A stretch of DNA of 21,343 nucleotides from Phycisphaerales bacterium UBA2421. GTDB taxonomy: Bacteria; Planctomycetota; Phycisphaerae; Tepidisphaerales; Tepidisphaeraceae. The stretch lies in NCBI GenBank assembly GCA_002343075.1, contig DDRH01000048.1, positions 1 to 21,343 of the forward strand, in the 5' to 3' direction. A program made the position numbers and the translations under genes. Shown piece after piece: positions 7,882-21,235 of this stretch; within the stretch, counting starts at the first letter, position 1; each line of letters starts with the position of its first letter. The notes beneath the pieces are model-generated. The model was given only the letters and a program-made list of their open reading frames with translations. It was not told where the DNA came from and ran no database searches.

Positions 7882-9492
7882 TTGAGCATCGCGCAACCCA
7901 TTCTCGCCTTCGGTTCGCTCGATTGGACGATTCTCTGCATCTACTTCGCAGCGATGTTCGCGGTCGGCTTGTGGCATTACCGCAAGCATGACTCTTCGGA
8001 AGATTATTTCCTTGCCGATCGCTCGATGCCAACCTGGGTGCTTGCGATTTCCATCGTAGGCTCGTCGCTCAGCGTTGCTACATTTGTGGGCGCGCCCGAC
8101 TTTGCGTTCGGGAAAAATCTGACCTACGTCATGTATTTCCTCGGCAGCTCGATCGGGGCGGTAATCGTGGCGTTTCTTTTCGTGCCCCGACTCTACGCTG
8201 CCGGGACGGTGACGGTCTATGGATTCCTCGCCACCCGGTTCGGCGAAGGCGCGCGTATCGCGTCTGCGGTGGTGTTTCTGCTCGGGCGATTCATGGCCTC
8301 AGGCTCGCGCGTCCTGATGGCGGCGGCGCCGCTTTGCCTATTGTTGTTCGACGACCTCGCACCTTTCGATAACAAGCAAAACATGATCCTGGCCATCTGC
8401 CTGATCGGCGTGGTTGGGACATTTTATACGGTTCTTGGGGGCATTCGCGCAGTCATCTGGGTCGATCTTGTGCAATATTGCATTGTACTAGGTGCCGCAA
8501 TTCTGACGCTGGTAATCCTCTTCACCAAACTGCATATGTCCCCGGCAGAGCTTTGGGCCGTGCTATCCACCGCCGGCGAGGGTGGCGGGAGCAAACTGCA
8601 GGTGGTGAGCCTTTCAACCAGCTTCTCCAACCCCCACACCCTCATGGCAGCGGTGTTTGGAGCAACCTTTCTCGCCGTCGCCTCGCTCGCCCTCGATCAG
8701 GACATGGCCCAGCGGTTCCTCGTGGCCAAAAGCGCCAGCCGCGGGGCCGCGAGCGTGATCGCGTCGCAATTGATTGCCGTACTCACCGTGATGCTCTTTC
8801 TCATTATTGGCTTGCTTTTGTTCGTTTTTTACAAGCGAACCGATCTCACCGGCCTAAGCCCCGTCCCCCCGCCGAGCGATTCACTCGCGCAGATTGTCTA
8901 CCCCTGGTTTCTGCTGCGCGAGTTGCCCCCGATTCTAGCCGGGCTGGCAATCGCAGGTCTGTTCGCCGCGGCGCAAGGAACGATGGACTCGGCCATCAAC
9001 GCGATGGCCAGCAGTGCGGTTGCGGATGTTTACTTTCCGATTCGCCGAATGATGGGAAGGCCCATCGATACCTCGACCGACGCCGCAGCCCCGAAATGGG
9101 CCGTTGCGCTCATCGGCGGGGTGATGACACTCTTCGCGATACTTTGCGTCTTCATCTACGACGCAAAGAGCAACACATTTCTAGATTTCGCGCTGGCGAT
9201 GCTCACATTCTCTCTTGCCGGGCTTCTCGGCGTCTATTGCTGCGCGATGTTCACGCGCCGGGGCAATTCGGCTTCGGTTATCGCGGCGCTCGCGGGCGGG
9301 TTCATTACTGTTGTGGTGCTGCAGAATTTTGTGCTCGGCCCGATTACAGAGCGATTCCTCGAACAGCGCTTTACGCTTGCATGGCCGTGGCATATGCCCA
9401 TTGGCGGGTTAGTGAGTTTCCTGATTTGCTGCATTGGTTCGCGGCGCGGCGCTCGCCAAGCGATGCAATCGGAAGTACAACTCGCGCGATGA
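7882..9492 (+). CDS. Sodium:solute symporter (SSS family)
   Basis: Inner-membrane secondary transporter of about 536 residues with roughly 13 hydrophobic segments. It opens with the family-typical GSLDWTILCIYFAAMFAVGLW and HDSSEDYFLADRSM (first helix and following loop). SSS features follow: SIVGSSLSVATFVGAPDFAF in the second helix, FYTVLGGIRAVIWVDLVQ, and ALDQDMAQRFLVAKS near the middle, matching the DQ...QR motif. AAQGTMDSAINAMASSAVADV comes later. These support Na+-coupled uptake. The substrate cannot be read from sequence; its place just after nagZ suggests an amino sugar or muropeptide fragment. The open frame extends upstream into nagZ; TTG 7882 is preferred because GAAGGAG sits between the nagZ stop and this codon. 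Its stop overlaps the next gene's start (ATGA). Confidence 0.88.
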   Translation: MSIAQPILAFGSLDWTILCIYFAAMFAVGLWHYRKHDSSEDYFLADRSMPTWVLAISIVGSSLSVATFVGAPDFAFGKNLTYVMYFLGSSIGAVIVAFLFVPRLYAAGTVTVYGFLATRFGEGARIASAVVFLLGRFMASGSRVLMAAAPLCLLLFDDLAPFDNKQNMILAICLIGVVGTFYTVLGGIRAVIWVDLVQYCIVLGAAILTLVILFTKLHMSPAELWAVLSTAGEGGGSKLQVVSLSTSFSNPHTLMAAVFGATFLAVASLALDQDMAQRFLVAKSASRGAASVIASQLIAVLTVMLFLIIGLLLFVFYKRTDLTGLSPVPPPSDSLAQIVYPWFLLRELPPILAGLAIAGLFAAAQGTMDSAINAMASSAVADVYFPIRRMMGRPIDTSTDAAAPKWAVALIGGVMTLFAILCVFIYDAKSNTFLDFALAMLTFSLAGLLGVYCCAMFTRRGNSASVIAALAGGFITVVVLQNFVLGPITERFLEQRFTLAWPWHMPIGGLVSFLICCIGSRRGARQAMQSEVQLAR

Positions 9493-10592
9493 ACGCCGAA
9501 CTGATTCAGCCGAATATTCATATCGCGGTCGTCCATTTCCCGATCGCCCTGCTCGCGCTGGGTGTATTTCTGGAAACCTTCAGCTTCCTCGGCTGGCGCG
9601 ATTCGTCACTGCGCCGGGCGGCACGATGGATGATCCTGTTCGGCGCGATCGCCGCGGCGCCTGTGGCGACCAGCGGCATCTATGCGCTGTTCGACACCCG
9701 CGACGCCACCCCGACCGACGCACTCACGCAGGAAATCGTGAGCGACCATGTGCTGTTTGGCAGCATCGGCACGGTCGCAGCGCTGCTGGTCTGTGCCGGT
9801 TGGATCGGGTTGACCGACGAGTGGCGACGCAAGTTGCACTGGCCGCTGCTGGTTTTGATGCTTCTCGCCACCGCCGTCGTTTTGTCGACCGCGCATCATG
9901 GCGGTGAAATGGTCTATCAACACGGCATCGGCGTGAAGACTGACGGCGGTCTCACCGAACCAGCATCGACCCAGCCGCTACCGGGTGGACTGGCGGGCCT
10001 GAGCCAGCGGGTTGCGCCGATCGCCCCGCCGCTGCAGGTGCATATGCTTCTCGGTGGGCTTGCCGGCGGGTTGGGGATCATCGCAATCGGGGTCTCCAGC
10101 CGTGCCATGCTCGACCGCGGCGCCCCTATCGAGCCGAATGAGCGTCACGACGGCACCGCGATTGCCTCAGCGTTCGCGGCCCCGCTGGCCGACGTCGTGT
10201 TTGCCGAGGAGCGAGCACAGCGCGCCGGTCCCGTGGTGTGGCTGACGATTCTCATCGGCGCCCTCGCGTCGCTGGCAGGGTGGTGGTTTTTGGCACACGA
10301 CAGCGATGTCTGGAGTATCAAGGCGCTGTGGCAAATGGCCACCGATCGATCGCTCAATGAAGGCCGGTGGCTCACCCGTCGCACCGCACACCTCATCGCA
10401 GGCCCGGCGATGCTCCTGCTGCCGCTAATCCTGCTGGCCATCTCCCGCTACCGCCCCCGCGGGCGCGTTCTATGGGCGGTGGTGAGCCTTCTGCTGCTGG
10501 TTGCCATCGCGGCGCAAGTCTGGCTTGGACAACTCATGTTGCTGGATGAGTCGCGCACCATGGGCCCGATCACGCGATGGAGTACTCGCTGA
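9489..10592 (+). CDS. DUF2231-like multi-pass membrane protein
   Basis: A 367-residue integral membrane protein. The N-terminal half matches the DUF2231 pattern: NIHIAVVHFPIALLALGVF (His11 and His16 in the first helix), a second helix with AAPVATSGIYALFD, His87, and AHHGGEMVYQHGIGV (136-149). Regularly placed histidines in such proteins suggest b-type haem, which is not proved. The C-terminal half adds helices near 185-205, 250-270 and 300-355 (HLIAGPAMLLLPLILLA and a long Leu/Val helix), so the protein is larger than a lone DUF2231 domain. ATG 9489 overlaps the symporter stop by four bases, which implies translational coupling. A much longer open frame reaches back to 8478 but is a shadow of the symporter gene. 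Function in the operon is unknown; an electron-transfer or accessory role is possible. Confidence 0.8.
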   Translation: MNAELIQPNIHIAVVHFPIALLALGVFLETFSFLGWRDSSLRRAARWMILFGAIAAAPVATSGIYALFDTRDATPTDALTQEIVSDHVLFGSIGTVAALLVCAGWIGLTDEWRRKLHWPLLVLMLLATAVVLSTAHHGGEMVYQHGIGVKTDGGLTEPASTQPLPGGLAGLSQRVAPIAPPLQVHMLLGGLAGGLGIIAIGVSSRAMLDRGAPIEPNERHDGTAIASAFAAPLADVVFAEERAQRAGPVVWLTILIGALASLAGWWFLAHDSDVWSIKALWQMATDRSLNEGRWLTRRTAHLIAGPAMLLLPLILLAISRYRPRGRVLWAVVSLLLLVAIAAQVWLGQLMLLDESRTMGPITRWSTR

Positions 10593-13689: not shown

Positions 13690-13704
13690 TTGTAACTGAT
13701 ACGA
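13690..13704 (+). promoter_or_regulatory. Imperfect palindrome resembling a Zur box
   Basis: TTGTAACTGATACGA matches 10 of 14 defined positions of the Bacillus-type Zur site TCGTAATnATTACGA as I remember it. Its arms TTGTAAC and TCGTATC (reverse complement) agree at 5 of 7 positions. It lies 43 bases before the start at 13733 and overlaps a possible -10 (TACGAT, 13700-13705). The idea of a zinc-responsive operator rests on this and on the operon content. Confidence 0.35.
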
Positions 13705-13732
13705 TTTTTGGCGCTTTTTCAGGAGTAGTGCA

Positions 13733-14476
13733 TTGGCTGTGACGCTCGATTCAGTTTTCAAGCAGTACGTCGCGCCCGACGGCTCAGCGGTGCCGGTCAT
13801 TCATATTCCAAAGTTCGCGCTTCTCCCCGGCGAACACGTTGCGTTGATTGGCACCAGCGGATCGGGAAAGACCACGCTGCTGCACCTGATTGCCGGGATT
13901 CTGGTGCCGGATCGGGGGCGGATAGTCTTTTCGGGAACCCGGGACGACGCGCGTGGGTCGGGCTCAGCCGTCGTCCCCTACTCGACCCCGCCGGGCCTGG
14001 GTCGCGAGGTGGACATTTCCCAACTTTCCGAAGCGCGCCGCGATGTGTTTCGTGGGCAGAACATCGGCTACATCTTTCAAACGCACCACCTACTGGGCGG
14101 GTTCACTGCGTTGGAAAATGTGCAACTGGGCATGAGTTTTACTGGTCGGCGCGTGGATGTGGGGTGGGCAACCCATCTTCTCACCGCGGTGGGCCTGGCA
14201 GATCGCATGCACTACAAGCCGGGCAAGCTCTCGGTCGGCCAGCAGCAGCGGGTTGCGGTGGCGCGGGCGCTGGCCAATCGCCCGCTGCTCGTCCTGGCCG
14301 ATGAGCCGACCGGCGCGCTCGATCCTGCCAACGCCCAGCAGGTGCTTGACCTCATCCGCACGCTCTGCACCGAAGTGGGTGCCAGCCTGCTCTTAGTGAC
14401 GCACGACATGACAATCGCCAACCAGCTTCCCCGGCAGGTGATGCTGGGCGAGCTCAATCAACCGCAAGTGAAATGA
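13733..14476 (+). CDS. ABC transporter ATPase, MacB/LolD-like
   Basis: ATP-hydrolysing subunit of an ABC complex of the MacB/LolCDE type, which works mechanically on envelope substrates rather than importing through a pore. All nucleotide-binding motifs are intact: Walker A GTSGSGKT (40-47), Q-loop Gln116 (FQTHHLLGGFTALENV), signature LSVGQ (166-170), Walker B LLVLADE with catalytic Glu191, D-loop ALD, and switch His224 (LLVTHD). A 25-residue insert (about 68-95, rich in Gly/Ser/Pro) lies between Walker A and the Q-loop. TTG 13733 is chosen because AGGAG (13721-13725) is seven bases upstream; GTG 13739 is an alternative. The stop overlaps the permease ATG by four bases, so the two subunits are coupled. 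It is the first gene of the 13733-17134 operon. Confidence 0.92.
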   Translation: MAVTLDSVFKQYVAPDGSAVPVIHIPKFALLPGEHVALIGTSGSGKTTLLHLIAGILVPDRGRIVFSGTRDDARGSGSAVVPYSTPPGLGREVDISQLSEARRDVFRGQNIGYIFQTHHLLGGFTALENVQLGMSFTGRRVDVGWATHLLTAVGLADRMHYKPGKLSVGQQQRVAVARALANRPLLVLADEPTGALDPANAQQVLDLIRTLCTEVGASLLLVTHDMTIANQLPRQVMLGELNQPQVK

Positions 14477-15843
14477 ATATATTCCAACTGGTACTCAAGC
14501 AGATGCGCCAGCGGGCGCTGTCCACCTGGCTGACGCTCTTGAGCGTGATGCTTGGGGTGGCGCTCGCGGTTGTCATCATGCTCATCCGGCGCGAGTCGGC
14601 GGTGCTCTTCGGACAGACCGATTACGGGTTTGATATCATTGTCGGTGCCAAGGCTTCTTCATTACAGCTAGTGATGAACACGGTCTATCACATCGACCGC
14701 TCGCCGGGCAATATTCCCTATTCGGTCTACAAGCAGCTTACCGAAAGCCCACAGTTTCGCCCGGCAGTGCGAATGGCCGTCCCGACGGCAGTCGGAGACT
14801 CATACCAGGGCCAGCGCATTGTCGGCACAATCCCGCAGCTATTCGGCATGGAGGACGACGGCATCACCCCAATCCCGGCCAATCGCACGATGCAATATCG
14901 CCCCGGCAAGCGCTACGAAATCGCGCAAGGCCGGGTGTTTCACGGGCAAAAGTTTGAAGCCGTCATCGGTGCCGACATTACCAAGCTCACCGGCCTGAAA
15001 CTTGGCGACATTTTCAAGGCGACCCACGGCCTGCCTAAACCCGGCGAAACACCCGACATTCACGGAGAAGAGTGGACCGTTGTCGGAGTGCTGAAGGAGA
15101 CTGGAACCGCCGCCGACCGCGTGCTGTATATCTCGCTGCCGTCGTTCTATGCCATGAGCGGCCACGATTATGCAATGAAGGCGCAGGCCGCCATTCGCCA
15201 GGGCATTGACACAAGCCGAGCCAACGCGCCCGGGCCAACGACTGCGTATGACGTTCGACCCGATGGCACAATCGAACTGCATCTGCCCGAATCCGATTGG
15301 GCGCTCTCTGCAGTGCTGGTCAAAAGCCGAAGCCCGTTTTTTGCCAGCCAGATGATGTATGTCATGAACAACGGCCAACAAGCGGCCGCGGTCAACCCGG
15401 CGAGCGTGATGCGGGAGTTTTTTAACACATTCCTGCAACCCACCACCCGCGCCTGGGGGGCTGTGGCCTACCTCGTGAACGCAGTCGCGATCGTGGCGAT
15501 CCTGGTAAGCATCTACAACAGCGTCGCGGCGAGAATTCGCGAAATTGCAATTCTCCGGGCCTTGGGGGCAACCCGCCGCAGGGTGATGCTCACCATCTGC
15601 CTGGAGGCAGGGCTGATCGGCTTGGCAGGCGGTGTGCTGGGCATCGCCGCCGGGCACCTTCTTGGTGCTCTGGTAAGCGGGTATTTTCAACAAACGATAG
15701 GCGAGGGCATCCGATGGTGGATTGTCTCCCGGGAAGAATGGCTATACTTACTGAGCGTGACGGTCGTTTCGATGCTCGCAGGTCTGGTGCCAGCGATGAA
15801 GGCCTATCGGACACCCGTGGCGGACAATCTGGCGGGAGTGTAG
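14473..15843 (+). CDS. ABC transporter permease, MacB/FtsX-like
   Basis: A 456-residue inner-membrane subunit with the MacB/FtsX layout: one N-terminal helix (about 16-40, LSTWLTLLSVMLGVALAVVI), a large periplasmic domain (about 42-330), then three helices near 333-355, 380-405 and 430-450. RIREIAILRALGATRRRVML between helices 2 and 3 is the conserved coupling segment of this family. The periplasmic part contains motifs such as IVGAKASSLQLVMNTVYHID and VVGVLKETGTAADRVLYI, seen in MacB-type permeases. It overlaps the ATPase stop by four bases and is followed 33 bp later by the first DUF3299-like gene. It probably moves or extracts an envelope substrate together with the two DUF3299 proteins (inference from gene order). 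Confidence 0.9.
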   Translation: MNIFQLVLKQMRQRALSTWLTLLSVMLGVALAVVIMLIRRESAVLFGQTDYGFDIIVGAKASSLQLVMNTVYHIDRSPGNIPYSVYKQLTESPQFRPAVRMAVPTAVGDSYQGQRIVGTIPQLFGMEDDGITPIPANRTMQYRPGKRYEIAQGRVFHGQKFEAVIGADITKLTGLKLGDIFKATHGLPKPGETPDIHGEEWTVVGVLKETGTAADRVLYISLPSFYAMSGHDYAMKAQAAIRQGIDTSRANAPGPTTAYDVRPDGTIELHLPESDWALSAVLVKSRSPFFASQMMYVMNNGQQAAAVNPASVMREFFNTFLQPTTRAWGAVAYLVNAVAIVAILVSIYNSVAARIREIAILRALGATRRRVMLTICLEAGLIGLAGGVLGIAAGHLLGALVSGYFQQTIGEGIRWWIVSREEWLYLLSVTVVSMLAGLVPAMKAYRTPVADNLAGV

Positions 15844-15876
15844 CCTGGCTTGGTGATCTCTGATCGGAGTGACAGG

Positions 15877-16572
15877 ATGATTCGAGGCATTGTTTCAGTT
15901 TTCGCGGTTCTTAGCCTGCTTGCTGTGACAGTGCGCGCCGAACCCACCCCTGTTGCCGATGATGCCACGGTGGAAGTGCGGGCGCAGTCGGCGATGAATC
16001 GTGGGGATTGGGAGCGGGCGGTGCCGCTTCTGAAGGAACTGCGGGAAAAATACGCCGATATTGCGCCCGAGCGCCTCGGCGCGATTGATGAACAGATTCG
16101 CATGGCCGAGCGGGCACTGGCGACGGGTGCCCCCCCGCCGGAGCAAGTGCTCACCGCGGCTGACGTCCGTAAGCCGCATTCCCTCCCGGGCGATGGGCAG
16201 GTCTATGAAACGACCATCAAGGAACTGGGCAATTTTGATTATGATCAGAACGAAGGCGGCAACATCCCCAACGACGTTAAAGCCTTGTCAGGAAGCAAGA
16301 TACGGCTCAAAGGATTCATGATTCCCATGGATCAGGCCGAGTCGATTACCAGTTTTGCGCTGGTTCCGGACTTGTTTGCCTGCTGTTTCGGTCAACCGCC
16401 CCAAATTCAACATACTTTGGTAGCTTCCACGCCCAAAGGCAAAGCTGTGTCGTATTATCCTGATGAGATTGTCGTCGAAGGAAGGTTGATCGTCGAGGAG
16501 AAAAAGGAAGACGGCTTTCTCATCAGCGTGTTTGAGGTGGAGGTCGACAGCGTGCGGCCGGCGTCTAAGTGA
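15877..16572 (+). CDS. Exported TPR-like plus DUF3299 protein
   Basis: A 231-residue exported protein. MIRGIVSVFAVLSLLAVTVRAEP is a signal peptide, likely cut after VRA. Residues about 31-82 are a TPR-like helical pair (RAQSAMNRGDWERAVPLLKE). Residues about 135-228 match DUF3299: IRLKGFMIPMD, then ALVPDLFACCFGQPPQIQH, then EIVVEGRLIVEE. Typical DUF3299 proteins have a Cys and a Pro-rich stretch at this place (CIHVPPPPPNQ, recalled); here it is CCFGQPPQIQH, with Cys169, Cys170 and His179 as possible metal ligands. ATG 15877 is preferred over TTG 15850 because GGAG is seven bases upstream and the signal peptide then starts properly. It belongs to the ABC operon. Confidence 0.85.
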   Translation: MIRGIVSVFAVLSLLAVTVRAEPTPVADDATVEVRAQSAMNRGDWERAVPLLKELREKYADIAPERLGAIDEQIRMAERALATGAPPPEQVLTAADVRKPHSLPGDGQVYETTIKELGNFDYDQNEGGNIPNDVKALSGSKIRLKGFMIPMDQAESITSFALVPDLFACCFGQPPQIQHTLVASTPKGKAVSYYPDEIVVEGRLIVEEKKEDGFLISVFEVEVDSVRPASK

Positions 16573-16588
16573 GTGAGGGTGTGTCGCG

Positions 16589-17134
16589 ATGGAAACGGCG
16601 ATTGCAAAACCAGCGAGACTTTCGTTGAGCGAGCGGTTTAACTTCCGCATCCTTCTCTTTGTAGCCTTCCTCATTGTGGTCGTAGGCTACCCGGTCTATG
16701 TCTATCTCGAGGGTGTATTCACCGGCGGAGTGAAGCGACTCGGCGATGGTGTGACGCAAGTTGATCTGAAGTTTATGAGCACATTCATGTTCGATCAGGT
16801 CAATGGCACGATCGACGATGTTCCCCAGCGGTGGCGCGACCTTCACGGCACAACCGTCGTGCTTGAAGGAGAAATGTGGTCACCCAGTTATGCAGGATAC
16901 GAAGTGCCGGCGTTCCAACTCTGCTATTCAGTGGCGCAGTGCTGCTTCAGCGGCCCGCCGCAGGTGCAACACTTTGTTAACACAACTGCGAAGGGCGGAG
17001 GGATGATTCCGTTTTTCGACGGCAAGGTGCGCGTTGTCGGGACATTGAAAGTCGAAGTCAAACGCGACGAGGCCGCAAACAAAGTGGCGAGCGTCTTTGA
17101 ACTGGAACTGGAAGATATACGGCCCGTGGGCTAA
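16589..17134 (+). CDS. Membrane-anchored DUF3299-like protein
   Basis: A 181-residue protein, distantly similar to its upstream neighbour. One N-terminal helix (about 20-40, ILLFVAFLIVVVGYPVYVYL) serves as an uncleaved anchor, placing the rest outside the cytoplasm. The DUF3299-like core reads VVLEGEMWSPSYAGYEV, then LCYSVAQCCFSGPPQVQHFV (Cys112, Cys118, Cys119, His128), then VRVVGTLKVEV and VFELELEDIRPV. The CCF(S/G).PPQ.QH element is shared with the exported protein, which argues that the pair arose by duplication and shares a ligand. ATG 16589 has GAGGG nine bases upstream and begins 16 bp after the previous stop. It is the last gene of the operon. No intrinsic terminator with a T-run is visible downstream. 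Confidence 0.82.
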   Translation: METAIAKPARLSLSERFNFRILLFVAFLIVVVGYPVYVYLEGVFTGGVKRLGDGVTQVDLKFMSTFMFDQVNGTIDDVPQRWRDLHGTTVVLEGEMWSPSYAGYEVPAFQLCYSVAQCCFSGPPQVQHFVNTTAKGGGMIPFFDGKVRVVGTLKVEVKRDEAANKVASVFELELEDIRPVG

Positions 17135-17653: not shown

Positions 17654-18835
17654 CTAGAACGGCGGCGGGTCGCCGCGCTTCCACCAGTCGGCGTCGTGCT
17701 GTTCCTTCTTCTTCTTCTCGCGGCGCTTCTTTTCGTCTTCGTCGCTGTTCTCGAAGCTCGTTCCGCCGGCTTCGCCGTACTCGTCGGGGCGGTCGTCGCC
17801 TTCGGTCTTGCGCACCATACCCGCGAGCGCCGTTGCAAAGACTGGGGCAATCGCCTTTACCATCGCCAAATCAGCGTCGGTAAACGGGCATTTTTCATCG
17901 CGGAAGAGCGTGAGTACCGCCAGGCTCTCCCCAAGATAAGTGCAGTTCTGACTCAACACGGTCTGGTTCTTCAAAAACCCATGCTCGCCCGCGGTGAGAT
18001 TCTTTTTCAGCGCGTGGCCTTCCAGTTGCACGGTGCCTTCGCGCGCGGTCATTGGGACCAGATTCTGCCTGATCGCGTCGGTCAGCGCCGGCTCGCCCGG
18101 AATTGTGTATTTCATATAAGCGCCGAGCTGATATTCGGCATCGTCCGCCGCCAGCCAGACCGCCAGGTTGCAATACCCCGCCTGACGCAGAATCCAATCC
18201 ATCGCGTGGCACAGCATCTGCTCCAGATCCTTGCTCGATTCGAGCAGACGACGGAAGGATTCCTGATTGCGAATCTCCTCCACCTGCTTGCTCACTTCGC
18301 CGTACGCGCTGATAAGGTCGTTGCACAGCAGATCAACCTTGCGGGTGACCACTTTGCGCGACTGGTTCAATCGGCGAACCGCATCTTTCAGTCGGTCGAT
18401 GCGCTTTTCGTTTCGCGCGATCAGCGTTTGCCGGTGAATGGCGCGATCGACATGTTCGATGATCTGGTCAATGTTGAACGGCTTTGGCACGAAGTCGATC
18501 GCGCCGGCCCGCAGAGCCCCCACCGCCGACTCCACCGTCGGCTGGCCGGTGATAATCAGCGCCCGCGCCGCAGGTTGCCGGGCCTTGAGCACCGGCATGA
18601 GCGACATGCCATCGCCGTCGGGCAGATGAAGGTCGGTCAGCAGGACGTCGATTGGCTGGCTCTCGATGATGCTGCGTGCGGATGCGAGATTCTTCGCGGT
18701 GACAAGCTTGCAACTGACTTTGGCGCTGATGGCATCGCGCAACAGTTCCAGCACATCGGATTCGTCATCAACCACGAGCAGCCGGGGCATGACTTTGGAA
18801 GCCGACTCGGTCGGCGGCAACATCGCAGAGGCCAT
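17654..18835 (-). CDS. Response regulator: REC domain plus GAF-like output
   Basis: A 393-residue regulator. The N-terminal REC domain (about 17-130) has the acidic pair in VVDDE, phosphoacceptor Asp68 in LLTDLHLPDGDG, the switch Thr in LIITGQ, and Lys118 in VPKPFN. A coiled-coil linker (about 135-205, NEKRIDRLKDAVRRL) leads to a GAF-like domain (about 210-355). There is no DNA-binding domain, so output is probably by protein contact. The last 40 residues are strongly charged (NSDEDEKKRREKKKKEQ) and end DADWWKRGDPPPF. ATG 18835 is chosen over TTG 18853 because AGGA lies six bases upstream. The gene follows the histidine kinase by 57 bp on the same strand and likely receives its phosphate. Confidence 0.88.
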   Translation of the reverse strand: MASAMLPPTESASKVMPRLLVVDDESDVLELLRDAISAKVSCKLVTAKNLASARSIIESQPIDVLLTDLHLPDGDGMSLMPVLKARQPAARALIITGQPTVESAVGALRAGAIDFVPKPFNIDQIIEHVDRAIHRQTLIARNEKRIDRLKDAVRRLNQSRKVVTRKVDLLCNDLISAYGEVSKQVEEIRNQESFRRLLESSKDLEQMLCHAMDWILRQAGYCNLAVWLAADDAEYQLGAYMKYTIPGEPALTDAIRQNLVPMTAREGTVQLEGHALKKNLTAGEHGFLKNQTVLSQNCTYLGESLAVLTLFRDEKCPFTDADLAMVKAIAPVFATALAGMVRKTEGDDRPDEYGEAGGTSFENSDEDEKKRREKKKKEQHDADWWKRGDPPPF

Positions 18836-18892
18836 GATAATTCCTACTCCCAACTCCGGTACTACCTGTTCGACGACACGTCCCGCAATCCG

Positions 18893-21235
18893 TCAGGCCG
18901 ACTCGGCCCGCGTTTCGGGTCCCTGCAACGCATCGCCCGACTGAGATGAGTCGGCAACCGCTGCGGGGAGAAGGACAATCGCCCTCGTTCCCACACCCGG
19001 TCGGCTCTCCAGGCGAATCGCTCCGCCGTTGAACTCGATCCATCGGAGCGCCTTGGACAATCCCAATCCACGCCGCCGACCTGCCTTTTTGAAGCTGAAA
19101 AAGGGATCGAACGCGTGCTTAAGCGTTTGTTCGTCCATTCCACAGCCGTTGTCGGCGATCGTCAGCACCACTTTCTGGCTGAACGGATCAAACGCCGCAT
19201 TCATCTCTACCTTGCCGCCGGTTTCTGGCAGGCTTTGGACGGCATTGACGATGAGTTCTGCCATCGCCGCTGACGTCTGCCCCGGATCAACCTGCACCGC
19301 AGGCGTCTGACCGAGCGACGAAGTTAATGTTGTATCGGTGCGAATCTCGGTCTGCTTCGCAATCGTTATCGCTTGTTCGAGTACTGTATTTATCGGAACC
19401 GCGGCCGGCCGGGCGGCTTCCGGCTTCGCGAAGTCCATCAATTCGGTAATGATTCCGCTTAGCCGCTGGCTGTTATCAAAGATCTTGGCCGCCAGTTGCT
19501 TCTGTTTCGGATCGGTCAGTTCCTGCTCCAGCATCTTCGATCGCCCGCTGATGACCATGAGCGGGTTGTTCATTTCATGCGCCGCCCCGGCGGCCATTTC
19601 GGCGACCATGACTACCGTCTTACTGCGCAGCAACTCGGTCTGCGCCGACTGTAGCCGTCGGTTGGCCTCGGCAAGCTGCTCGGCGAGTGTGCGGGCTTCC
19701 TCGCGTATCTGGGTCGTGCGCAGCGCCAGCGACCAACCCCCGCTCAGTGCTGTAAGCTCGGCATACTGCGGGGTGAGGCGTTGACCTTCGCCAATATCGG
19801 CACCCCAGACAATCCCGCCAATGCATCGCCCGTCGGCGTGCAGGGCTAACCAATACCGATGCTCGCCGGCCAGCCTTGGCGACACCGATTCGAGCAGCCA
19901 CTCCATCGCGGCATCACAGGGCTGAACCGGCGCATTGGGTGCAGCGGGCGGTGCGTCTACCCCAACACCCGCCCCTTCGCCCGCGCCAACTGTCGGCTGA
20001 ACATGACCCGCTTCAGCAATGGTGCTTTCGAGAAGATCGCCGTTGCCATCAACCAGCGCCACCTCGGCATACTCGCGCCCCGGTGCCAGCGAAAAGACCG
20101 CGACGGTGCCGGCGTGCAACACACTGGCAGCGGTCTGGCCGATCGCATGCATAATGACCTGCGGCGGTGCATCGGGCCGAAGTTCGGCCTGAAAGCGATT
20201 GAGCGCATCAAAAAACGAAGCGCGGACGGCAAGCTTGCGACTCTTGGCCGTCAATTGCTGGTTGACCCGGCCAAGCTCAACATTTGCCTGCGCCAGCGCC
20301 GAAACGTAAATGTCATTCGCGCTCGATTGCCCCAGCCCGAGCGTCGCGGCGCGCGGTTCGATGTGCTTTACCAATTCAGCAACGGCACCGATGACTTGTT
20401 CTGATGTCAGCCCGATCGCGTCAAGCAAAGCCTGGCGGGTGGGGGTGAATGTGTAGTTACCGCTCCAGCCGAGGTGCATCTCGCGCACAACCACGTCGGC
20501 GAGCGTAACGACATTCACAAGCTGCGGGTGTTGCACAGTGCCGGGCAAGGCTGTCGGTGCGTGGCCGTGCAGCCAGATGGTTTCCCGAATGCTCGCAGGC
20601 AGTCCCCATCGCTCGGCGAGGCGCTTCCCGACGACCATATGATCCAGCCCGATCACCTGCCGTTCGACATCGGCGATATTGCCCCGAAGCAACTCGGCGG
20701 CATCGACCACACGCGAGAAGCTCTTGGGCAGGGCTGCATCGAGGGCTACTTTGCCCAGGTCATGCAACAAGCCGCAGACAAAGGCATCGCTGGCGTCGGC
20801 CCCCGCATCACGCCCGTGGACGCGCTTCAGTTCGATGGCGATCAACTCTGCGCAACAGGCGACCGCGACGCAGTGCTTCCAGAAATCTTCCCGGCTGAAC
20901 TTACTCGCCCCGCCGCTGGGGCTGGTGCGGAACGTGTCAAACACACTCACCGCAAGCACCGCCGACCGCACAGCGTCGAACCCAAGCAGTTTCACAGCCC
21001 GATCGACACTATTCACCTCCCCGCGCACGCCCAGATCGGCGCGGTGGACGAGCTTGAGAATGCGCGTCGTGAGTGAAGGATCGGACTCGATCAACCGGAC
21101 GACATCGGCGGAGCTGGATTTGTCGTCCTGGGTCACCTGCAACACGCGCACCGCCACCGCAGGCAGCGTGGGCAGATCGTCCAACTGCTGCAGGATCAGT
21201 TCGGCGCGTTTCTCTCGAAGGTCCAACATGCCCAC
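18893..21235 (-). CDS. HDOD plus GAF-like histidine kinase
   Basis: A 780-residue soluble hybrid sensor with no transmembrane segment. Residues about 10-290 form an HDOD domain (LPTLPAVAVRVLQ, then FVCGLLHDLGKVALD) that keeps the His158-Asp159 pair. Residues about 335-510 resemble a GAF-type sensor with a Gly/Ala/Pro-rich insert (about 412-437). A coiled coil (511-545) precedes the kinase core: H-box AAGAAHEMNNPLM with phosphoacceptor His553, N-box ELIVNAVQSL (Asn664), G1 DNGCGM (695-700), F-box FDPFFSFKK, and G2 RRRGLGLSKAL. The pattern matches the NtrB-like HPK4 group. The frame opens at GTG 21235; ATG 21229 two codons later is equally likely, and no strong ribosome binding site separates them. 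It precedes the REC-GAF regulator. Confidence 0.9.
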   Translation of the reverse strand: MGMLDLREKRAELILQQLDDLPTLPAVAVRVLQVTQDDKSSSADVVRLIESDPSLTTRILKLVHRADLGVRGEVNSVDRAVKLLGFDAVRSAVLAVSVFDTFRTSPSGGASKFSREDFWKHCVAVACCAELIAIELKRVHGRDAGADASDAFVCGLLHDLGKVALDAALPKSFSRVVDAAELLRGNIADVERQVIGLDHMVVGKRLAERWGLPASIRETIWLHGHAPTALPGTVQHPQLVNVVTLADVVVREMHLGWSGNYTFTPTRQALLDAIGLTSEQVIGAVAELVKHIEPRAATLGLGQSSANDIYVSALAQANVELGRVNQQLTAKSRKLAVRASFFDALNRFQAELRPDAPPQVIMHAIGQTAASVLHAGTVAVFSLAPGREYAEVALVDGNGDLLESTIAEAGHVQPTVGAGEGAGVGVDAPPAAPNAPVQPCDAAMEWLLESVSPRLAGEHRYWLALHADGRCIGGIVWGADIGEGQRLTPQYAELTALSGGWSLALRTTQIREEARTLAEQLAEANRRLQSAQTELLRSKTVVMVAEMAAGAAHEMNNPLMVISGRSKMLEQELTDPKQKQLAAKIFDNSQRLSGIITELMDFAKPEAARPAAVPINTVLEQAITIAKQTEIRTDTTLTSSLGQTPAVQVDPGQTSAAMAELIVNAVQSLPETGGKVEMNAAFDPFSQKVVLTIADNGCGMDEQTLKHAFDPFFSFKKAGRRRGLGLSKALRWIEFNGGAIRLESRPGVGTRAIVLLPAAVADSSQSGDALQGPETRAESA

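Follow-up and report, generated by a model that had tools for sequence, protein, structure and literature searches.

Positions 13733 to 17134 of contig DDRH01000048.1 from Phycisphaerales bacterium UBA2421 (assembly GCA_002343075.1) carry four tightly packed + strand genes, which encode an ATP-binding cassette (ABC) ATPase, a permease, and two DUF3299-type proteins that we call A and B. The whole stretch of DNA that was analyzed, hereafter the window, is 21,343 bases long and makes up the entire contig, one of 67 in a 4.47-Mb genome; the named close relatives come mostly from Phycisphaerae or Tepidisphaeraceae. The cluster is probably an unstudied branch of the zinc-responsive system of Vibrio and Pseudomonas, and, as far as its sequences indicate, it is a variant of the Zrg/PA4063-PA4066 kind that has twin DUF3299 partners and no ZrgA. 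On balance, we lean toward the view that it works as a mechanotransmission ABC system resembling ZrgBC/PA4064-PA4065, which, together with OB-fold partners, handles a transition metal in the periplasm.

An earlier sequence-only reading of the window had described this cluster as four tightly packed genes starting at position 13690. The packing was borne out, since the ATPase gene (13733..14476) and the permease gene (14473..15843) lie on the same strand and overlap by 4 bases, while gaps of 33 and 16 bases separate the permease from A (15877..16572, with its ATG start) and A from B (16589..17134), respectively. Position 13690, however, turned out to be intergenic, the first gene beginning at 13733 with a TTG codon that has AGGAG 7 nt upstream. 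The ATPase (247 amino acids) is of the LolD/MacB class (ABC_tran, 99.2 bits) and the permease (456 amino acids) of the MacB/FtsX type (FtsX PF02687, 60.9 bits; MacB_PCD PF12704, 33.8 bits), as that reading had proposed. The best NCBIfam match of the ATPase was LolD with 187 bits, under the LolD equivalog cut-off of 307.75. Hydropathy placed the hydrophobic segments of the permease at residues 14-47, 325-356, 370-405, and 421-445; a large periplasmic domain separates the first from the second.

The periplasmic domain of the permease contains three histidines, His185 (15025..15027, +), His197 (15061..15063, +), and His231 (15163..15165, +), that are conserved throughout the family. They were followed in an alignment of 161 rows, composed of 120 database relatives and 41 locus rows from Planctomycetota, alpha- and gammaproteobacteria, and Deinococcota, of which 157 were distinct (the window permease was repeated and three genes occurred in two loci each). 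His185, part of an invariant His-Gly, was present in 161/161 rows, His197 in 158/161, and His231 in 157/161. Each of the exceptional rows (L007, L020, and L050 at position 197; L040, L041, L042, and L045 at position 231) has another histidine a few residues away in the segments compared, and the exceptions may therefore be alignment shifts. The same picture was given by alignment A3 (26 sequences sharing 23 to 76% identity with the window permease), in which His185 and His197 were invariant and His231 nearly so; the segment from His185 to His197 is itself often rich in histidine across the family.

As controls we used MacB-type permeases of the same genome, which has 11 other MacB_PCD matches. 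From 12 MacB_PCD places one open reading frame (ORF) per locus was aligned, two loci being the same ORF, and the ORF at C55:226231 entered the pattern check only. None of the 11 control rows (10 distinct ORFs) has histidine at the three columns, and the HG...H...H pattern was absent from the control frames matching the permease profile, being present in other frames only. When solved chains of MacB, LolE, LolC, LolF, FtsX, and others were compared with the permease profile, with residue-level alignments for four chains, the best stretch lay inside positions 238-417, i.e., in the FtsX part and outside the histidine region. The signature is thus common to the aligned planctomycete, alpha- and gammaproteobacterial, and Deinococcota permeases and absent from the aligned own-genome MacB-type permeases, and we read the three histidines as a likely metal site. 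The working of ZrgBC/PA4064-PA4065 is disputed in print, where the pair figures as importer or exporter, and a family-wide signature offers a direct residue-level test of that dispute. A survey of the literature by titles and abstract openings, in which subscription journals were poorly covered, found nothing on planctomycete DUF3299 systems or on a three-histidine signature.

Protein A (231 amino acids from the ATG; 240 if translation starts at the TTG at 15850) reached the curated cut-off of 22 bits for DUF3299 (PF11736) with 42 bits. B (181 amino acids) gave no Pfam match, PF11736 included, and of four B-like relatives two stayed under the cut-off (20.9 and 17.9 bits) and two had no match. 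Nevertheless, B is akin to A by hhalign (99.6%, E 1.5e-23), and the predicted models of both are OB folds with PA4066 (PDB 4hsp) as the top structural match, so that the assignment of both proteins to the DUF3299 type was sustained. Alignments A1 and A2 were built from 30 of the 120 A and 30 of the 76 B proteins listed. The two topologies also agreed with the sequence-only reading, in which one protein was exported and the other anchored: the sole hydrophobic stretch of A is N-terminal and signal-peptide-like (cleavage between VRA and EP, a guess by eye), and B has one long N-terminal membrane helix (residues 19-45) followed by the OB-fold domain. The model of A shows three N-terminal helices within residues 32-83 and then a C-terminal OB-fold domain; the extension was therefore correctly foreseen, but its likeness to TPR was not upheld (TPR_14, E 0.013), and because this match is weak, we term it a helical extension only.

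Both proteins carry a Cys-Cys...His loop, CCFGQPPQIQH in A (16381..16413, +; Cys169, Cys170, and His179) and CCFSGPPQVQH in B (16940..16972, +; Cys118, Cys119, and His128), with exactly the residues named beforehand. When all six reading frames of the window were searched for CC...PP..QH, these two loops alone matched. Among the relatives of A listed (120 of 1208 over the threshold, the window's own included), the two cysteines and the histidine were present in 120/120, and among those of B listed, again with the window's own, in 76/76, the whole motif being kept in 67/76. Across the phylum, 28 of 29 loci have a CC loop, those of L006, L022, L027, and L029 having been missed by the first loop pattern and recovered later, and one has a classical C-I-H. 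At the tenth position after the first cysteine, Phycisphaerae loci have H in 13 and E in 3 cases (n=16), and the CC loops of other loci have E in 18, D in 14, Q in 7, G in 4, H in 3, and A in 2 (n=48). The loop of PA4066 is C-x-H and shares only the first cysteine with the window loops (ACIHVPPPPSNQ), while the small CPFC proteins that Deinococcus, Allomeiothermus, and Shinella encode next to the ABC pair contain a similarly arranged domain that bears no Pfam name. Reading all of these loops side by side, one cysteine seems to keep its place, and another candidate ligand follows at +1, +2, or +3. Window A contains exactly two cysteines, both within the loop; 100 of the 120 A relatives listed have at least three after residue 25, which makes further disulfides possible there.

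The sequence-only reading had called for a search of planctomycete DUF3299 homologs next to such an ABC pair, and the association proved to be widespread. DUF3299 was matched in 70/244 genomes of the phylum at 82 places, 81 of them in other genomes. Within the 29 phylum-wide loci, all from other genomes and viewed in stretches of ~3.3 kb, a permease lies within about 1.5 kb in 26, and two of the three loci without one are near contig ends. We also inspected 19 longer non-window contexts, hand-picked from the 82 places for long contigs and hence not a random sample; the ABC pair was found in 15 and at least two DUF3299-like genes stood together in 8, with L059 doubtful, its second DUF3299-like protein being weak (29 bits in one scan, no match in the Pfam scan). 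Judged by eye from the N-termini, the pairs of L054, L057, L058, and L062 each consist of one membrane-anchored and one lipoprotein-like protein, and tandem DUF3299 proteins with different anchoring, as noticed in the window, therefore recur elsewhere in the phylum.

A sample of 26 genomes from the window's own family gave a similar distribution: 23/26 match DUF3299 alignment A1 and 24/26 have the permease. A-type proteins occur in 16 genomes, and a B-like match adjoins A in 15 of them, the 16th being split over contigs. By the coordinates of the permease and DUF3299 matches alone, the permease is at most 3 kb from a DUF3299 match in 16/24 genomes, ten with A and six with a B-like protein alone. 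All eight named loci have the A-B twin, the permease being visible in three. The full gene set is common, though not universal, and all of these co-occurrence counts are lowered by the fragmentation of metagenome-assembled genomes. Beyond the phylum, the window permease retrieved 91 records from a plasmid collection at E 1e-10, with Phaeobacter permeases as the best; the Phaeobacter locus examined has the order Fur-ZrgA-ATPase-permease-DUF3299, its permease being 29.3% identical over 99%. Seven loci from this collection were compared, one of them found via DUF3299 itself: DUF3299 adjoins the ABC pair in L039, L040, L043, and L045, a small CPFC-loop protein of similar layout is near it in L041, L042, and L044, and ZrgA is present in L039, L040, and L045.

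Further genes accompany these loci. In the Deinococcus, Allomeiothermus, and Shinella plasmids (L041:1057-5550, L042:1583-5688, and L044:1452-5679), which have a permease of the same family, a PF00245 alkaline phosphatase gene is directly followed by the CPFC-loop protein, and such neighbors hint at a link with metal enzymes. Small histidine-rich proteins without a Pfam match, containing 8 to 16 His and forming one blastp family, stand beside the ABC pair or a DUF3299 gene in 4 of the 19 hand-picked contexts (L049:4986-5534, L056:8977-9663, L059:6719-7201, and L061:9393-9908); this family could replace ZrgA. In 6 of the 19, an exported-looking protein of ~400-690 amino acids with CPFC near its start lies beside DUF3299 pairs of other planctomycete families (L054:9832-12304, L057:6540-7721, L058:8815-10359, L062:6030-7586, L064:5362-7425, and L065:9318-10592). 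HEAT repeats were matched in 2 of these 6 when scanned, and in L064, where the frame is probably over-long, CPFC is located further in. Three loci encode a DUF2231 membrane protein close to their DUF3299 twin, namely the window (~9500-10592; ORF 8478-10592), L031 (8546-9796), and L038 (7335-8627).

Twin DUF3299 genes have more than one origin, as a tree of 97 rows places the pairs in separate clades. This tree was midpoint-rooted, has many open forks, and its bootstrap is unsettled; it omits 5 candidates without a match to the loop pattern, two of which (L031:6650-7177 and L037) do carry CC loops, as well as the Shinella CPFC protein (L044), and the A loop of L038 is in a different frame from the rest of the gene on a gapped contig. 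The sampled A rows form one clade and the sampled B rows another (support 100/96 each), while the twins of families f30 and f63 make up two further clades (98/88 and 99/96). Genome G028 has copies that are each other's nearest kin (100/97); of the pair in Rhodobacteraceae SC52, only one is grouped with the Phaeobacter protein (100/98). The two CPFC proteins in the tree have a long branch. Repeated duplications, several into anchored and lipoprotein-like forms, suggest separate jobs for the two copies.

These findings led us to favor the following mechanism. The ATPase and permease would form a split MacB/LolCDE-type (type VII, mechanotransmission) ABC system of the ZrgBC/PA4064-PA4065 family with two OB-fold partners. 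ATP hydrolysis in the cytoplasm would move the periplasmic domain bearing His185, His197, and His231, and this movement would lead to the binding or the release of a transition metal or metal complex, provided that the three histidines act as a single site. The metal could then be exchanged in the periplasm, in either direction, with the Cys-Cys...His loop of B at the membrane and that of the diffusible A, and both proteins would have to contact the permease. Kinship with Zrg makes zinc the first candidate; the known Zrg/PA4063-PA4066 members show a zinc response via Zur (PMC9817125 and PMC11481552). The metal interpretation is strengthened by the permease histidines, by the metal-flavored neighbors, and by a Zrg operon being the best plasmid match.

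The following observations weigh against it: (i) the loop histidine appears to be clade-specific, and in the eight named loci 9/9 B-like proteins keep CC, whereas 4/9 have Glu at the histidine position; (ii) in 8/24 permease-bearing genomes of the family, which are fragmented metagenome-assembled ones, no DUF3299 match lies within 3 kb of the permease, and 5/8 named loci have no permease within ~6 kb upstream of the twin; (iii) knockout of zrgE alone had no effect (PMC9820375), and no evident zinc binding was reported for crystalline PA4066 (PMC11481552); (iv) ZrgA (PF10986, DUF2796, histidine-rich) is absent from the window's genome and reached the cut-off in 0/248 genomes of the class, with weak matches in 6; and (v) no palindrome that could serve as a Zur site was found upstream of the window ATPase when 26 cluster starts were searched for palindromes and Fur-type patterns, although the Zur box of this phylum may differ. 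Because other clades vary at the histidine position and 4/9 B-like proteins have Glu there, the Cys-His set is not one fixed site, and the conserved cysteines and histidines may be structural. Of the paired cysteines and histidine proposed earlier as metal ligands, the pair thus proved conserved, and the histidine in most of this clade only. Similarly, the link to Zrg drawn in the sequence-only reading holds as kinship to Zrg/PA4063-PA4066; zinc or Zur control of the window locus, with neither ZrgA in the genome nor a palindrome, does not follow from it.

As to regulation, the genome contains two FUR-family genes and three ZnuA-family proteins, one of them with a histidine-rich loop, so that ordinary metal uptake is probably present; by eye, the FUR and ZnuA-like gene loci of the genome have no common palindrome. 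In the window, scans for promoters and terminators gave no more signal than shuffled sequence. A TGTTATAACATAACA match, which resembles the gammaproteobacterial Zur consensus, occurs in Catenovulum, in the divergent promoter that separates DUF3299 from the ATPase (L043:3732-3782).

A relay between A and B, as the sequence-only reading suggested from their two topologies, is a fair hypothesis, on which it bears that the permease adjoins a B-like protein without A in 6/26 genomes of the family. In its full form, the cluster would be a periplasmic metal-relay ABC machine, in which a three-histidine site passes metal at the expense of ATP between anchored and diffusible (elsewhere lipid-anchored) OB-fold carriers with Cys loops, i.e., the logic of LolCDE-LolA-LolB applied to metal, in a twin form that evolved more than once. 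We regard this scheme as tentative and less likely than not; if true, it would be a kind of machine not described in the literature searched.

A rather unlikely alternative is that the cluster exports a metallophore, the split MacB pair expelling a chelator or chelator-metal complex with the DUF3299 proteins as periplasmic accessories. For PA4064-PA4065 it has been argued, from genetic and metal-content data on PA4065, that they form a split MacB that exports pyochelin with cobalt and does not mediate uptake (PMC11481552), and a 2025 paper repeats this reading and describes loss of PA4065 as having no effect on colonization in larvae (PMC13083405). The MacB-like architecture would fit such a function, yet no MacA/HlyD-type adaptor was found in a scan that covered 10 window proteins, those of the cluster among them, and not the remaining genome, and the conserved periplasmic histidines would suit direct contact with metal.

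We consider it unlikely that the cluster is a zinc importer, i.e., an uptake pump whose solute-binding protein would be A or B, on the model originally put forward for ZrgABC. The permease belongs to the four-helix FtsX/MacB class, members of which are considered to act by mechanotransmission and not via a translocation path; in addition, three ZnuA-family matches already exist in the genome, and ZrgA, the putative binding protein, is missing. In favor of an importer are the zrg deletion data from Vibrio (PMC9820375 and PMC9817125).

Quite improbable, in our opinion, is a Lol-like or YbbAP-like envelope machine that moves lipoproteins or hydrophobic compounds, in which the cysteines and histidines would be structural. 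LolD is the nearest family of the ATPase, several partners elsewhere are lipoprotein-like by eye, and a soluble and an anchored partner resemble the layout of LolA and LolB. However, the LolD cut-off was missed, the strongest matches of the profile to LolE, LolC, and LolF were confined to the FtsX part, the partners are modeled as OB folds, and their characterized relatives are regulated by zinc. Least probable of all is a thiol-redox pair, whose adjacent cysteines would form a vicinal disulfide for redox sensing or for copper or haem-thiol chemistry: the restriction of both window A cysteines to the loop and the CPFC loops of related operons would agree with it, but classical members keep one loop cysteine and a histidine (C-x-H), so that a disulfide is not a common feature, and the tenth position is the ligand-like E, H, or D in 51/64 CC loops.

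Downstream of the cluster, the - strand (17654-21235) encodes an HDOD-histidine kinase protein and a response regulator whose GAF-like matches are weak; by their look the two form a separate signaling unit.

Among known systems, MacAB-TolC, LolCDE, FtsEX, and YbbAP (type VII ABC) have an FtsX-type C-terminus that aligns with the window permease, whose histidine region they leave unmatched, and the window ATPase differs from that of LolCDE in scoring under the LolD equivalog. Unlike in MacAB-TolC, ATPase and permease come from two separate genes of the window and not from a single fused chain. In Vibrio vulnificus lineage 4, a permease, an ATPase, and two DUF3299 genes are consecutive in a lineage-marker table (PMC12777771), a likeness by gene list only. 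The Zrg-type operons on plasmids of Rhodobacteraceae (Phaeobacter inhibens pPGA1_262 and Rhodobacteraceae SC52 pSC52_1) encode permeases about 28-29% identical to that of the window. SC52 shares with the window two DUF3299 genes in tandem, though both of its proteins are free and exported by eye, whereas the window pair is anchored and free; moreover, the Phaeobacter and SC52 operons retain ZrgA, and Phaeobacter also a Fur-family gene. Vibrio ZrgABCDE combines a split ATPase and permease with the DUF3299 protein ZrgE in one operon, as in the window, and is induced by zinc limitation and repressed by Zur (PMC9817125). The window lacks ZrgA, has two differently anchored DUF3299 proteins instead of one, and Zur control would be at most putative in it. 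Finally, the gene kinds of Pseudomonas PA4063-PA4066 are the same, and PA4066, itself of OB-like fold (PMC8561739), is the closest structural match of both A and B. The window's genome has no PA4063/ZrgA homolog, and the loops differ, being CC...QH in the window and C-x-H in PA4066 (Vibrio sequences were outside this comparison); relative to the Pseudomonas system, A adds the N-terminal helical extension and B the membrane anchor.

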